A stretch of DNA of 64,000 bases from Herbaspirillum sp. SJZ106. Lineage in GTDB: Bacteria > Pseudomonadota > Gammaproteobacteria > Burkholderiales > Burkholderiaceae_D. The notes below the pieces were generated by a model. That model ran no database searches and was not told the DNA's origin. It was given only the letters and a program-made list of their open reading frames with translations. The translations under genes and the position numbers were made by a program. The stretch covers positions 434,001-498,000 of the forward strand of contig NZ_VFNI01000001.1 of assembly GCF_006715495.1 (NCBI RefSeq), read 5' to 3'. Below are positions 7,705 to 12,320 of this stretch, piece after piece; position 1 is the first letter of the stretch; every line of letters starts with the position of its first letter.

Positions 7705-8346
7705 TTACCAGCGCAGCAGGCGAGGGCCGAATAAAAAGCCCGCCATCGCAGGGATCAGCATGCCGAGGAAATACCACAGTCCCCAGAACGGCACGCCCAT
7801 TTCCGGACAATGCAGGCAATACACCATGGTGGCAGTGGCGCCGGCCAGCAGTCCGGCGATGGCGCCGGCCAAGCGCAGCCGCGTCGGCGCCATGGCGCGC
7901 ACCGCCCAGACGATGGCGGCGAACAGCGGCAGCGACAGCAGCGCGATGTTGAAAGGGCAGGTGCGCCAGGTGGATCCCATCAGCAGCGCCATACGTTCGG
8001 CCGCCGGGGCGGACAGCAGCACCAGTGCGCCGGCAACCCAGAGAGCTGCGCTCGGTGCGGCGATGCCGCTCCAGCGCAAGCCCACCCGCAGGCCGGGGCG
8101 CAGCAGCCGACGCAGCACCAGCAACGAACCTGCCGCCAGCGCGGTGGGAAAGGCCAGCTTGATCCAGAACAGCGGTGTCGACAGCATGGCTGTCAAATCC
8201 GGGCGCGGGCCGAACAGCAGGAGCATCAACGCCACGCAGGCTGCCATGCCCAGGGCCAGCGCCTGCGCCATGCGGCGCGCCGGCAAGCCGCGGTCGACCG
8301 GGGCGACGCCGGCGGCCATCATCGATATCAGGTCATCGGTTTTCAT
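7705..8346 (-). CDS. NrsF-type (DUF1109) membrane anti-sigma factor, distal copy
   Basis: A 213-residue integral membrane protein of the DUF1109/NrsF family with six hydrophobic segments. In Caulobacter, NrsF holds the ECF factor SigF at the membrane and releases it under metal or oxidant stress through two conserved cysteines. Equivalent cysteines here are C130 (TCPFN) and C180 (HCPEMG), with an extra C177. The gene follows the ECF sigma gene by 3 bp and is the last of the leftward operon. It is a diverged paralogue of the first gene, sharing MKT.., LLGSTW/LMGSTW, NIALLSLP and FWG.WY.LGML. Whether both copies bind the same sigma factor is not known; one may have specialised. Confidence 0.87.
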   Translation of the reverse strand: MKTDDLISMMAAGVAPVDRGLPARRMAQALALGMAACVALMLLLFGPRPDLTAMLSTPLFWIKLAFPTALAAGSLLVLRRLLRPGLRVGLRWSGIAAPSAALWVAGALVLLSAPAAERMALLMGSTWRTCPFNIALLSLPLFAAIVWAVRAMAPTRLRLAGAIAGLLAGATATMVYCLHCPEMGVPFWGLWYFLGMLIPAMAGFLFGPRLLRW

Positions 8347-8349
8347 GAT

Positions 8350-8997
8350 TCACATTTTCTCTCTAATTTTCGCCGCCAGCGCTTTGAGGCCGCGATGGAT
8401 TCCCACCTTGACCGCTGACTCCGTCATGCCGGTCAATTGCGCGGTTTCCGCCACCGACAAGCCTTCCAGCTTGACGTGTACGATCGGCAAGCGCTGCTTG
8501 TCGGGCAACAGATCCAGGAGCGAGCCGACGTCGCGCCGCGCTTGCGCGGGTTCCTCGTCGCAGGCGGCGAACAACTCATGCTCGTCGTCCAGCGGATCAT
8601 TGAGGGCTTCGCGGCGCGAACGGGCGCGCAGGAAATCCATCAGCTTGTAGCGCGCGATGGCGTGCACCCAGGCCGTGAGCGGTTGGTCGGCGCGGTAGGT
8701 GTGGCGCGCGTTGTGCACTGCCAGCAGGGTTTCCTGGACAATGTCCTCGACTTCGTCCTGCATGTGTTGCAGCCGCTTGCGCAGGAAGGCGCGCAGGCGG
8801 CCGCTCAGTTCCGACAGGAAGTTGCGGTAGGCGTCCGCGTTGCCCTCCAGCCCGGCCAGGAGCAAGGTCCGGAGACGTTCCTCGGCCGGATAGGCAGGTT
8901 CCTTGCCGGCCAGGGGTTTCATGGCGCGGCCGGCCGCGTTGTCCTCGAAGGAGGGCAATTCATGGGCAAAGAACGGTTGGCTTTTTGTCATGGGCAT
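8350..8997 (-). CDS. ECF RNA polymerase sigma factor, SigF-like
   Basis: Alternative sigma-70 family factor, 215 residues. Region 2 is visible at roughly residues 65-130 ([17 protein letters not shown] and the [15 protein letters not shown] helix) and region 4 at 155-210 ([19 protein letters not shown], then the helix-turn-helix [19 protein letters not shown]). Start ATG 8997 lies 9 bp after the upstream nrsF-like stop; a second ATG at 8991 is possible. Its position between two NrsF-type genes, and matching promoters in front of this operon and of the divergent bufferin operon, suggest it transcribes both. The leader before region 2 (~45 residues) is somewhat long for an ECF factor. Confidence 0.92.
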
Positions 8998-9006
8998 GCC
9001 GCAGGT

Positions 9007-9657
9007 TCACCAGCGCAGGAGTATGGGGCCGGCCAACGCGCCCAGCAGCGTCGGCGCCAGCATTCCCAATACATACCAGACGCCCCAGAATGGCGGCGCC
9101 ATTTCCACGCAGTAGAGCGAATAGACTAGCACGCCCTGGGCGCCGGCCACCAGGCCGGCGACGGCGCCGGCGGCCGCGAGCCGGGTCGGGGCCAGGCCGC
9201 GCATGAACCAGAACATGGCGGCCAGCGTCGGCAGCGACAGCAGGGCGATGTTGAGCGAGCAGACTTCCCAGGTCGAGCCCAGCAGCAATGCCAGGCGTTG
9301 CGAGTTCGGCGCCAGCGCCAGCCAGCCGGCGCCAGCCAGCCATAGCACTGCCGGCGGCAGCATCAGGGCGGCGGCAGGGCCAATGCCGATGCGCACGCCG
9401 GGACGGGCCAGCCGCGAGGCCGCCGCCTGCGCCGCCAGCAATACCGCCAGCGGGAACGATACCTTGAGCCAGAACAGCGGCTGTAACAGCAGTTCCGGCA
9501 TGTCGCTGCGCACGCCGTAGATGATGGCCAGCAATAGCGCGGAGCCGCCCAGGCCCGCCGCAAGCGCCACCGCCATGCGGGCGCCCACGCCGCCGGGCAG
9601 GCTGTTGCTGCCAGCGGTGCCGGCGGCCAGCATGTTGACCAACTCCATTGTCTTCAT
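9007..9657 (-). CDS. NrsF-type (DUF1109) membrane anti-sigma factor, promoter-proximal copy
   Basis: 216-residue DUF1109/NrsF-family protein with six predicted membrane helices and first gene of the leftward operon. The redox or metal-sensing cysteine pair expected from Caulobacter NrsF is present at C133 (VCSLN) and C183 (YCVEMAPPFWG). ATG 9657 is chosen because AAGGAAA lies 7-8 nt upstream. Downstream come the ECF sigma gene (9-bp gap) and a second NrsF-like gene. The promoter on the minus strand at 9703-9732 is about 45 bp upstream. The paralogue has PE after its second Cys where this one has VE, and the periplasmic loops differ, so the two may sense different signals. Confidence 0.87.
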   Translation of the reverse strand: MKTMELVNMLAAGTAGSNSLPGGVGARMAVALAAGLGGSALLLAIIYGVRSDMPELLLQPLFWLKVSFPLAVLLAAQAAASRLARPGVRIGIGPAAALMLPPAVLWLAGAGWLALAPNSQRLALLLGSTWEVCSLNIALLSLPTLAAMFWFMRGLAPTRLAAAGAVAGLVAGAQGVLVYSLYCVEMAPPFWGVWYVLGMLAPTLLGALAGPILLRW

Positions 9658-9702
9658 CCGATTTCCTTTTCGCCATCGGCGCACTGGGCGCCGCTTTCCT
9701 AC

Positions 9703-9732
9703 CTATTCGTTGGCCGGGCCGGTTCGGTTACA
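9703..9732 (-). promoter_or_regulatory. Candidate ECF-sigma promoter of the nrsF-sigF-nrsF operon
   Basis: On the minus strand TGTAACC (9732-9726) and CGAATAG (9709-9703) are separated by exactly 16 nt. The same two boxes at the same spacing occur divergently at 9774-9803. The arrangement resembles SigF-type promoters (GTAACC about 16 nt from CGAA). The predicted start of transcription is ~40 nt upstream of the first gene. Confidence 0.72.
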
Positions 9733-9773
9733 GGGCGCGCAAAAAATATTTATCCGGAATTTGCGCCGTACGC

Positions 9774-9803
9774 TGTAACCGCAGCGCATGGGGCGGCGAA
9801 ATA
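9774..9803 (+). promoter_or_regulatory. Candidate ECF-sigma promoter of the bufferin operon
   Basis: TGTAACC at 9774-9780, 16 nt, then CGAAATA at 9797-9803. It shares both boxes and the spacing with the divergent promoter at 9703-9732. The predicted leader before the bufA start codon at 9884 is about 75 nt. Confidence 0.72.
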
Positions 9804-9883
9804 ACGTACAGATCGGCAGTCACGGCGCGGCAATGATGGCGCCGCCGGTCGTATCCACTTTCAACCCCATAAGGAGTCACACC

Positions 9884-10177: not shown

Positions 10178-11035
10178 ATGGAAGCGACCTCCGCGCCGGC
10201 AGGCGCCGGACTCGGCCTCAAGCCCCAGCATTTCGATGCGGCGCTGTCCTGTACGGCGCCGGGTTTATGGTTCGAGGTCCATCCGGAGAACTACATGATG
10301 GATGGCGGCCCGAGGCTGGCCTGGCTGGACGCCGTGCGCGGCCGCCATCCCATCGCGCTGCACGGGGTGTCGCTTTCTCTTGCAGGGCCGGATGCGCCGG
10401 ACGCCGCTCACCTGCGGCGGCTGGCCAGGCTGATCGCCCGCATCGAGCCGGTGCTGGTGTCCGAGCACCTGGCCTGGTCGCGGGCCGATGGCCGCTATTT
10501 CCCCGATCTCCTGCCGGTGCCGCGCACCGGCGCAACGCTGGCGCGCCTGGCGGCCAACATCGCACGCACGCAAGATGTACTCAAGCGCCGCATCGCGCTG
10601 GAGAATCCGTCCCACTATTTGCATATGGATTGCCACGAATGGAGCGAGCCGGAGTTCCTGGGCGAGCTGGTGCGCCGCACCGGCTGCGGCCTGCTGGTGG
10701 ACGTCAACAACGTGCACGTCAGCGCGGCCAACCTGGGCATCGATGCGGCCGCTTACCTGGCGCAATTGCCGGCCGATGCCATCGAAGAAATCCACCTTGC
10801 CGGCCACAGCAGCGACAGCAACCTGCCCGGCCTGCTGGTCGATTCGCATGACGCCGCGGTGGCGCCATCCGTGTGGACGTTGTATCGCGCCCTGGTGGCG
10901 CGCATCGGTCCGAGGCCGACGCTGATCGAACGCGACGGCAACGTGCCGGCTTTCGATGAACTGCTGGCCGAACGCGACACCGCGCAGGAAATCCTCGCCG
11001 CCAGCCGGCAGCTGCAGGAGGCGTGCGCATCGTGA
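10178..11035 (+). CDS. bufB: MNIO-family (DUF692) bufferin maturase
   Basis: Multinuclear non-heme iron-dependent oxidase of the DUF692 family, 285 residues, TIM-barrel fold. This family oxidises Cys residues of precursor peptides. Conserved metal-ligand segments are visible in order: HPENYM (from residue 35), LHGVSLSL (about 64), SEHLAW (~97), LENPSHY, LVDVNNVHV, EIHLAGH, DSHDAAV and LIERDGNVP. These are the His, Glu and Asp clusters expected to hold two or three irons. It starts 15 bp after bufA1 and overlaps bufC by 4 bp (GTGA), indicating translational coupling. The predicted substrate is the upstream BufA1 precursor. Confidence 0.92.
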   Translation: MEATSAPAGAGLGLKPQHFDAALSCTAPGLWFEVHPENYMMDGGPRLAWLDAVRGRHPIALHGVSLSLAGPDAPDAAHLRRLARLIARIEPVLVSEHLAWSRADGRYFPDLLPVPRTGATLARLAANIARTQDVLKRRIALENPSHYLHMDCHEWSEPEFLGELVRRTGCGLLVDVNNVHVSAANLGIDAAAYLAQLPADAIEEIHLAGHSSDSNLPGLLVDSHDAAVAPSVWTLYRALVARIGPRPTLIERDGNVPAFDELLAERDTAQEILAASRQLQEACAS

Positions 11036-11781
11036 GCCGTCATGATTATTTCAGCCAATTCCTGCATGCCGTATGGCATGGCGAAAGCGGCCATCCGCTG
11101 GTGGCTTCGCTGTTGGCGCAGCCTGCCTTCGCGGTTTACCGCAACACGATTTTCAAGGGTTGCGTCGATGCCTTGTCTGCCAATTACCCGGCGGTGCAGC
11201 GGCTGGTCGGCGAACAGTGGTTCCAGGGCGCGGCGCTGGCCTATGCGCGCCGGCACATGCCTGACGACGCCTGCCTGATCGCTTATGGCGACGGCTTCCC
11301 GGATTTTCTCGACAGTGTCGATGCGGTACGCGAACTGCCTTACTTGCCGGGCGTGGCGAGACTCGACCGCTACTGGAGCGAGTCGCACTTGGCGGCGGAC
11401 GATGCGCCGCTCGATACCGCCGGCTTGCATGCAGTGCTGGCGTCCGGGCGCGATGTGCAACTGGCGCCGCAGGCAGCGACGCGCTGGCACTGGGAGCCGG
11501 CGTATCCGGGCTATTCGATCTGGGATGCCAACCGCAGGCCTGGTGTCGAGCTGCCATCCGAACTCGGATGGCACGGCGAAGGCGCGCTGCTGACCCGGCC
11601 GGAAGGCCAGGTGCGGTGGCAGCCGATCGGCCTTGGCGCCTGCCGTTTCCTGGATGCCTGCCGGGCCGGCATGGGCGTGGCCGCAGCGGCAGGATTGGCG
11701 CTGGAAGCCGAGCCCGGCCTGGATGTGGCCGCCATGCTGGGCGAGCTGGTGCAGGCCGGCGCCTTCACTTCTTTTCATTGA
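11032..11781 (+). CDS. bufC: BufC/HvfC-type partner protein (DUF2063) for RiPP maturation
   Basis: 249-residue protein of the DUF2063 family, which accompanies MNIO enzymes and is thought to present the precursor peptide to them. The N-terminal ~95 residues carry the helical DUF2063 domain ([33 protein letters not shown]); the remainder is the usual RiPP-recognition-like C-terminal part. GTG 11032 overlaps the bufB stop as GTGA and has AGGAGG 10 nt upstream; a GTG at 11023 is too close to that ribosome binding site. It is followed after 11 bp by the DoxX gene. Confidence 0.87.
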
Positions 11782-11792
11782 TGGAGAGCGAC

Positions 11793-12269
11793 ATGAACAA
11801 CACTACCTTGACCCGTACCGGCGAGACGGAGCATTGCCGGAATTCCCTCTGGTCGCGCGGCGCAGGCATGGCCGAACGCCTGATCGGCGATTCGCTGCTG
11901 GCGCTGGTGGCGCGCGTGGCGATGGCCGCGATCTTCTTCCTGTCCGGCCGCACCAAGGTCAGCGGTTTCCTGACGATCAAGGACGGCACTTACGTGTTGT
12001 TCCAGGAAGAATATCGCTTGCCGCTGGTCCCGCCCGACATCGCCGCCCACCTGGCTGCCTATGCCGAACACCTGTTCCCGCTGCTGCTGGTGCTGGGCCT
12101 GTTCACGCGCGGCGCCGCACTGGCGCTGCTCGGGATGACGGCCGTGATCGAGATCTTCGTCTACCCGGACGCATGGCCCACGCACCTGTCATGGGCCGGC
12201 CTGCTGCTGTTGCTGGCGGCGCGCGGCGGCGGCGCGTGGTCGCTGGATCGCCGTTTTGGTATTCGTTGA
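11793..12269 (+). CDS. DoxX-family membrane protein (HvfX-like) of the bufferin operon
   Basis: 158-residue DoxX-type integral membrane protein with about four helices ([67 protein letters not shown]). DoxX proteins are frequent last members of MNIO/bufferin operons and have been proposed to act in copper handling or quinone-linked redox steps at the membrane; the exact role is open. ATG 11793 is used because GGAGAG lies 5-6 nt upstream. It closes the operon and a strong terminator follows at 12286-12320. Confidence 0.83.
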
Positions 12270-12285: not shown

Positions 12286-12320
12286 AAAAGGAAATGGCCC
12301 CGGTGGGGCCATTTCCTTTT
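12286..12320. terminator. Terminator of the bufferin operon, sharing its stem with the ssrA terminator
   Basis: AAAAGGAAATGGCCCC, loop CGG/GGT, then its exact complement ending in TTTT: a 16-bp perfect stem with A and T runs on both sides, usable in both directions. The same 16-bp stem with a different loop is the core of the hairpin at 27438-27478 and recurs as half-sites in the 159-bp repeats. Confidence 0.88.

Follow-up and report, generated by a model that had tools for sequence, protein, structure and literature searches.

Promoters of the ECF16 group of sigma factors have the consensus tGTAACc-N16-CGAA (PMC3420878). For SigF of Caulobacter, the corresponding motif, GTAACC-N16-CGAA, lies ahead of both sigF and a bufferin-type operon, CC3254-3257, and the evidence for these promoters comes from 5'-RACE or primer extension, reporters, and deletion (PMC3511200). 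The bufferin operon depends on SigF and the cysteines of NrsF exert control; sigF itself is partly SigF-dependent, is expressed without SigF, and shows no strong autoregulation under metal stress (PMC3511200). The SigF regulon is induced by copper, to which a sigF mutant is sensitive (PMC8224329). In Bradyrhizobium, ecfF is transcribed from an ECF16-type promoter upon H2O2 stress (PMC3420878).

In the betaproteobacterium Cupriavidus metallidurans, gigPABT and rpoQ-rsqA form a divergon of the bufferin/ECF16 type (PMC10304878). Deletion of rpoQ raises gig expression in metal-treated cells, which the authors explain as compensation in the sigma network while still assuming control by RpoQ; the excerpted text reports no evidence of RpoQ-dependent gig transcription and assigns rpoQ-rsqA to RpoD (PMC10304878). 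In the BcrS-AbcS system of Brucella, matched divergent TGTAAC...CGAA promoters with 5'-RACE-mapped starts likewise separate the sigma and target operons, but the target, bcrXQP, comprises genes for a methionine-rich peptide and of Msr type, and the signal is HOCl (PMC8315932). The Neisseria sigma-E operon (NMB2140-2145) similarly includes, besides its autoregulated ECF sigma factor, a DoxX-like gene and others whose function is unknown, although it has a zinc anti-sigma factor (ZAS) and another promoter motif and is a single operon rather than a divergent pair (PMC2893595). Finally, Bufferin-1 clusters share a core of precursor, MNIO, DUF2063, and DoxX genes, with sigma and NrsF genes present in Buf1 clusters; promoters and gap length are not treated in the excerpts of that paper (PMC12452194).

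The Promoter Pair in Herbaspirillum

The window, a stretch of 64,000 nucleotides from Herbaspirillum sp. SJZ106, contains the features collected in table 1. Direct reading of the letters places both promoters where the earlier note had put them, and the two boxes and exact 16-nt spacer that it had described are indeed common to the two. The 226-bp gap that it gave corresponds to 9658-9883, provided that nrsF1 begins at ATG 9657 and bufA at ATG 9884, each of which has a Shine-Dalgarno-like sequence ahead of it. Its assignment to an ECF promoter type is borne out by the motif, which is the published ECF16 consensus of the Caulobacter SigF type and occurs here beside an ECF16 sigma gene, two NrsF-type anti-sigma genes, and a bufferin operon.

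Table 1. Features of the divergent locus and its surroundings (positions in the window)
Feature	Position	Strand	Basis
nrsF2, second anti-sigma gene of sigma operon, NrsF/DUF1109, 213 aa	7705..8346	-	PF06532 242.4 bits
ECF sigma factor gene, at most 215 aa, true start maybe further in	8350..8997	-	Sigma70_r2 and r4_2 above cut-off
nrsF1, first anti-sigma gene of sigma operon, 216 aa	9007..9657	-	PF06532 210.6 bits
ECF16-type promoter of nrsF1-sigma-nrsF2 operon, TGTAACC-N16-CGAATAG	9703..9732	-	exact match and genus conservation
Parts of the minus-strand promoter	TGTAACC 9732-9726, N16 9725-9710, CGAATAG 9709-9703	-	
Gap of 41 nt from one -35 box to the other, roughly four helical turns	9733..9773	.	
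A/T tract AAAAAATATTTAT, UP-element-like, 9-21 nt upstream of minus-strand -35 box	9741..9753	.	read directly
AATTT tract, 12-16 nt upstream of plus-strand -35 box	9758..9762	.	read directly
ECF16-type promoter of bufferin operon, TGTAACC-N16-CGAAATA	9774..9803	+	exact match and genus conservation
Parts of the plus-strand promoter	TGTAACC 9774-9780, N16 9781-9796, CGAAATA 9797-9803	+	
bufA, bufferin-1-type precursor, DUF2282, 92 aa	9884..10162	+	PF10048 87.3 bits
bufB, MNIO maturase	10178..11035	+	PF05114; NCBIfam MNIO_BufB 357.9 bits, cut-off 310
bufC, DUF2063 partner protein, start uncertain	11023..11781	+	PF09836 above cut-off; ORF bounds
DoxX family membrane protein, last gene of bufferin operon	11793..12269	+	PF07681 above cut-off
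Terminator-like perfect inverted repeat of 16 bp, flanked by A and T runs, past DoxX gene	12286..12320	.	read directly

Within the 64-kb window TGTAACC-N16-CGAA occurs at 9732-9706 (minus strand) and 9774-9800 (plus strand) and nowhere else. With the spacer relaxed to 14-18 nt there are again two sites, both in this gap, and none of 100 dinucleotide shuffles of the window contained two such sites (mean 0.05). The sequence hallmarks of an ECF16 system are present: the consensus precedes the sigma operon as well as the target operon, the sigma factor contains regions 2 and 4 (PF04542 and PF08281 above cut-off; best NCBIfam match NF009188, 328.8 bits, cut-off 250), and the linked NrsF/DUF1109 anti-sigma gene is found in two copies above the Pfam cut-off. 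Both copies have the two conserved anti-sigma cysteines, since in an alignment of 14 NrsF sequences Cys133 and Cys183 of NrsF1 and Cys130 and Cys180 of NrsF2 (cysteines at 37, 130, 177, and 180) occupy the two all-Cys columns. These would be periplasmic and are the putative counterparts of C131 and C181 in Caulobacter. The copies are 50% identical to each other (107/213 aligned), and both fall below the cut-off of the NCBIfam NrsF equivalog model (140.5 and 104.8 vs 300 bits). On the target side, the DUF2282 precursor, MNIO maturase, and DUF2063 partner constitute a Bufferin-1 (BufA1) cluster. BufA has four cysteines (37, 48, 56, and 77) and an N-terminal stretch that by eye is signal-peptide-like; it scores 26 bits with the BufA2 NCBIfam model, below the cut-off of 60, and its product is predicted to be modified and copper-binding. 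The inverted repeat past the DoxX gene is, by its letters, possibly a bidirectional terminator.

The genome has two NrsF matches, both at this locus, and one DUF2282 match, bufA. Given that the motif equals the ECF16 consensus and that the only NrsF and DUF2282 genes of the genome are here, the sigma factor of the window would be the obvious user of both promoters. Judged from its sequence, this promoter pair is genuine and typical of ECF16 divergons. The layout of the divergent pair is already known, and the window alone is a new member of a known logic. With Caulobacter crescentus SigF-NrsF it shares the promoter consensus, NrsF with two conserved cysteines, and a DUF2282-DUF692-DUF2063-DoxX target operon, which in Caulobacter is numbered next to sigF (PMC3511200). 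It differs in that sigma is flanked by nrsF on both sides (nrsF1-sigma-nrsF2) and in that the genome has a single DUF2282 gene and lacks any other exact site placed like a promoter. The locus in C. metallidurans represents the same divergon: its gig/rpoQ intergenic DNA (L253) contains an exact TGTAACC-N16-CGAA pair with an in-phase gap of 32 nt, one turn shorter than in the window, although there an anti-sigma gene is found only downstream of sigma.

The earlier note had also described the logic as transferred to a betaproteobacterium. No transfer is needed, as the divergon has been published for the betaproteobacterium C. metallidurans (PMC10304878) and many betaproteobacterial genera have the exact pair, even if the exact pattern finds it in only a few percent of genomes. 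Horizontal transfer of the Caulobacter logic is thus not supported as an explanation, judging from the presence of the pair in many betaproteobacterial and other genera. Neither did a genome scan with TGTAACC-N16-CGAA, which had been suggested as a way of defining the regulon, reveal one: the whole genome (4.58 Mb) has three sites compared with two for the reversed control, and the one site beyond the pair is not in a promoter-like place. It falls within an ORF of 107 codons whose surroundings resemble, by eye, a mobile-element remnant. A wider regulon was not supported by the looser pattern either, for TGTAAC-N16..18-CGAA gives five sites in all compared with 22 for the reversed control, the two extra sites lying within reading frames of 395 and 101 codons. 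Because single sites are not enriched genome-wide, the non-random feature is the close divergent pair together with its conservation.

Conservation within the Genus

A sigma match above 200 bits is found in 26 of the 34 genomes of the genus, which provide 28 loci (the window, L047-L071, L077, and L078, with two each from G028 and G026). Both exact promoters are present in 25 of these 28 loci, window included, and in 23 of the 25 they lie within 60 nt of each other; the spacer letters drift while both promoter boxes stay. These 23 gaps measure 40-42 nt in 18 loci, 31-32 nt in three, and 54 nt in two (L062 and L067). Far gaps are seen in L066 (118 nt) and L070 (110 nt), L068 combines an exact box with a changed one, a single changed box is present in L069, and L071, at a contig edge, has no promoter of the pair. 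Within the stretch taken, no bufferin gene adjoins the sigma gene in L068-L070. In L062, by eye, a 12-nt A/T-rich unit is seemingly repeated, and the gap is about one helical turn longer than in its close kin L061.

The arrangement of nrsF on both sides of sigma is found in 19 of the 28 loci (the window at 7705-9657, L047-L059, L061, L062, L064, L065, and L071), with about 700 nt between nrsF1 and sigma in L061, L062, L064, and L065. The same arrangement occurs in Pinirhizobacter (L175), and most other surveyed loci have sigma followed by one nrsF. The two genes may represent two sensors for one sigma factor.

Distribution and Partners of the Pair

A scan of one genome per species recovered at least 119 stretches with the exact pair and a gap of 20-50 nt, among them cases of two stretches from one genome (L149 and L187; L168 and L197). 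At this gap length the pair is present in 7 of 399 genomes of the window's order, its own genome included. With gaps of 0-60 nt it is present in 28 of 377 genomes of a sphingomonad family, in 22 of 379 of a second family in the window's order, and in 3 of 398 in a further search that included the window's own genome; the reversed control pattern gave no match in any of these family and order scans. In the family with 22/379 genomes at gaps of 0-60 nt, gaps of 61-121 nt occur in 3/378. The order and family searches contributed 57 loci, reduced to 44 distinct new pairs after removal of repeats of the first set and of each other, so that the survey comprises 163 distinct pairs (119 + 44) among the matches listed.

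Partner types were assigned from tblastn matches lying no more than 700 nt away, the queries being the proteins of the window and two of the cytochrome b561 type. Among the 163 pairs listed, 86 have bufferin and sigma genes, 24 bufferin on both sides, 20 cytochrome b561 and sigma, 15 sigma and another gene, 11 other genes on both sides, and seven further or edge types. Pairs with bufferin on both sides are mostly from sphingomonads, and in these bufB and bufC typically face bufA, DoxX, sigma, and NrsF across the promoters. Ten partners of other kinds were selected for a Pfam comparison. Families matched include cytochrome b561, MsrA, MsrB, thioredoxin-like, DUF1223, thiolase, and radical-SAM; the L163 partner, one of these ten, has no Pfam match.

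Helical Phasing of the Gap

The helical repeat of DNA underlies a reading of gap lengths as whole turns. Across the 163 pairs listed, the gaps peak at 21-22, 31-33, and 40-43 nt, with three at 53-54 nt. Those of bufferin pairs cluster near 21, 31, and 42 nt, with few near 53 nt, that is, at whole helical turns, and the window's gap is 41 nt; the 53-nt class rests on a handful of pairs. In the first set, the 119 stretches listed, the phase coherence is R=0.50 at a period of 10.0, which 0/5000 draws from a smooth null reach. The second, independent set of 44 pairs gives R=0.43 (7/5000) at a best period of 9.1 rather than 10-10.5.

Removal of relatedness by sequence clustering was rejected in favor of one-per-genus sampling and tree-based pairs, since shuffled pair regions already average 0.63 identity and clusters merged. 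In the one-per-genus tests, metagenome-assembled genomes without a genus name form groups of their own, and p values were approximated by the Rayleigh test from averaged R. All 163 pairs listed then give 99 groups with R=0.35 (p ~6e-6, 0/5000 smooth-null draws) and the bufferin pairs 66 groups with R=0.51 (p ~4e-8, 0/5000). Coherence is R=0.53 when bufferin pairs are confined to named or coded genera (49 groups), R=0.51 for bufferin-sigma pairs alone (52 groups), and R=0.63 for bufferin-bufferin pairs (15 groups, 10/5000; R=0.66 over 24 single pairs). The mean phase of the bufferin pairs corresponds to a gap of a whole number of 10.3-nt turns with a remainder of 0.5. The phasing is robust to one-per-genus sampling.

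Non-bufferin pairs have no significant phasing (40 groups, R=0.12, 2849/5000). Cytochrome-b pairs (15 groups, R=0.36, 755/5000) may be more weakly phased, and pairs of sigma with another gene have no phase (R=0.02), six of their 15 gaps falling in the windows 20-24, 30-34, 40-44, and 51-55 nt, suggesting that ECF16 pairs in general do not need phasing. A phasing rule for all ECF16 pairs was accordingly rejected, as the non-bufferin pairs do not follow it. In these phase windows, which were picked after the histogram had been seen, lie 96 of 113 bufferin pairs compared with 28 of 50 others. Permuting the bufferin and non-bufferin labels, over single pairs rather than genera and for a split that was made post hoc after the data had been seen, equaled the difference in 0/20000 cases. 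Bufferin divergons with far gaps do exist (118 nt in L066; 112 nt on a Pseudomonas plasmid).

The tree of sigma sequences provides a view of how the gap changes. Its input was the 163 pairs minus four short loci from the 20-50-nt search of the order, for which larger stretches were preferred, and minus eight duplicates of larger stretches (one locus was lost, L088 having been dropped as a duplicate without entry of its larger copy L077). Together with the window and 27 larger stretches this made 179 loci, of which 147 with a sigma match of at least 120 aa near the pair were kept. Among the 73 independent locus pairs formed, of all partner types, the gap changes by 0-3 nt in 49, by 9-13 nt in 16, by 4-7 nt in four, and by 8 nt in none, with changes of 15, 22, 31, and 76 nt in one each; the histogram omits the pair with a 118-nt gap. 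For the most part, then, the gap is either kept or shifted by around one turn, and intermediate changes are few. In the open-licence literature we found no earlier description of helical phasing of divergent ECF promoters, and the preference of the gap for whole helical turns in bufferin pairs appears to be a new property.

An A/T Tract Upstream of the -35 Box

The first 8-9 nt ahead of TGTAACC are rich in G/C, and an A/T-rich stretch follows at 10-16 nt. The A/T fraction in the 119 pairs listed is 0.66-0.79 at positions 10-16 compared with 0.14-0.37 at positions 1-8. In most genus loci, as in the window, the tract starts 9-10 nt from the minus-strand -35 box. The fetched loci also contain 34 distinct unpaired sites, for which the fractions are 0.59-0.85 and 0.18-0.38, respectively; by eye, some 13 of these sites are homologous ones behind sphingomonad nrsF. 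The presence of the tract at unpaired sites suggests that it belongs to the promoter rather than to the pair. We take 10-16 nt upstream of the -35 box to be the position at which the alpha subunit binds an UP element, and it is there that the survey places the A/T tract. The tract therefore fits an UP element by position, and the alpha C-terminal domain would be its predicted ligand. Its occurrence at 10-16 nt upstream of TGTAACC in ECF16 promoters appears to be a new property.

Proposed Working and Alternative Explanations

We consider it probable that the locus is an ECF16 divergon of the SigF/RpoQ type in which one sigma factor fires both promoters under NrsF control across a phased gap. 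Two membrane anti-sigma proteins, NrsF1 and NrsF2, would retain the sigma factor at the inner membrane until metal or oxidative stress in the periplasm, the presumed signal, is sensed through their paired cysteines and sigma is released. The released sigma would then presumably transcribe from both TGTAACC-N16-CGAA promoters, so that the operon for bufferin, a copper-chelating peptide, is made and the operon of sigma and its anti-sigma factors is reset. With the inverted -35 boxes whole turns apart, four in this case, two polymerases or their alpha C-terminal domains could share the short gap, and such co-occupancy is our leading guess as to the reason for the phasing. A more specific proposal, which we put forward only tentatively and hold to be somewhat short of an even chance, is that in bufferin divergons two ECF16 polymerases sit back to back in a fixed rotation through in-phase UP tracts, such that sigma feedback and the supply of metallophore increase in step. 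The whole-turn spacing would then be a selected grammar of divergent ECF promoters, distinct from the boxes and weak or absent with other partners.

The main evidence against the simple reading that one sigma drives both operons is the rpoQ deletion in C. metallidurans, the effect of which runs opposite to that model (PMC10304878). Sigma might instead drive the bufferin promoter only, with its own operon transcribed mainly by RpoD or another sigma factor and its own site serving as a weak feedback. The RpoD assignment of rpoQ-rsqA (PMC10304878) and the partial SigF dependence of sigF in Caulobacter (PMC3511200) speak for this. We nevertheless find it rather unlikely, given that the minus promoter is as exactly kept as the plus promoter in 25 of the 28 genus loci and that a promoter of this type drives ecfF in Bradyrhizobium under H2O2 stress (PMC3420878). 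That both promoters are chance similarities without function we regard as close to negligible: although single sites are hardly commoner in the genome than reversed controls (3 vs 2), the pair is conserved, sits ahead of both operons, and equals the published consensus, so that conservation already contradicts this notion.

Other explanations concern the phasing rather than the promoters. The gap could serve as an operator for another regulator, which would bind as a dimer to an A/T-rich and partly palindromic center whose symmetry sets the phase. Some genus gaps (the window and L047) do have A-tracts flanking a TCCGGA center, and such an operator would suit a phasing that is seen in bufferin pairs whereas A/T tracts are general, but by eye the centers of the 119 gaps listed have no sequence in common across lineages and gaps of 20-24 nt leave little room beyond one A/T tract, which makes an operator improbable. 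We judge about equally improbable that the steps of roughly 10 nt are a mutational by-product, arising from duplications and deletions of A-tract units that many species inherited. The apparent 12-nt repeat by which L062 departs from its kin is what such a process would produce; however, non-bufferin pairs have similar A/T tracts (0.75 at 10-16 nt in cytochrome-b pairs) and no significant phasing, and the 24 bufferin-bufferin pairs share these phase classes (R=0.66) despite facing unlike genes.

The survey yields the rule that ECF16 promoters have a positioned A/T tract and that pairs with a bufferin partner tend to whole-turn spacing. If functional, this DNA geometry could tie a sigma gene to its main target and would improve the prediction of ECF16 targets. 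It would also offer a concrete hypothesis on how gig and rpoQ of C. metallidurans are controlled, a question still unsolved; the exact pair in their intergenic region is not mentioned in the excerpts of PMC10304878.

Partners Other than Bufferin and Plasmid-Borne Loci

In six loci (L104, L110, L118, L136, L145, and L259) sigma faces a cytochrome b561-like gene, supported by Pfam for L104 and L110, and the gap lengths are looser; in L259 this gene is annotated next to a molybdopterin-dependent oxidoreductase. In Paraburkholderia L159 and L193 the divergent ECF16 pair faces a DUF1223 protein (by Pfam in L159 and by likeness in L193), and a cytochrome b561-like frame lies on the other side of the pair in L193, with no sigma gene found beside the pair.

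Twelve plasmid or chromid loci were chosen by hand out of 205 records. Five have no divergent pair. The others comprise two short-gap bufferin-sigma pairs, with gaps of 32 and 42 nt (in the latter both -35 boxes are altered by one letter), the Pseudomonas plasmid bufferin divergon with the 112-nt gap, and cytochrome-b pairs with gaps of 54, 84, 92, and 105 nt. On the Pseudomonas plasmid NZ_CP083747.1 (L255), typed as conjugative, one DUF2282 gene, two DUF1109 genes, and the gene of an ECF16-like sigma factor lie near recombinase, replication, and Tn3 genes.
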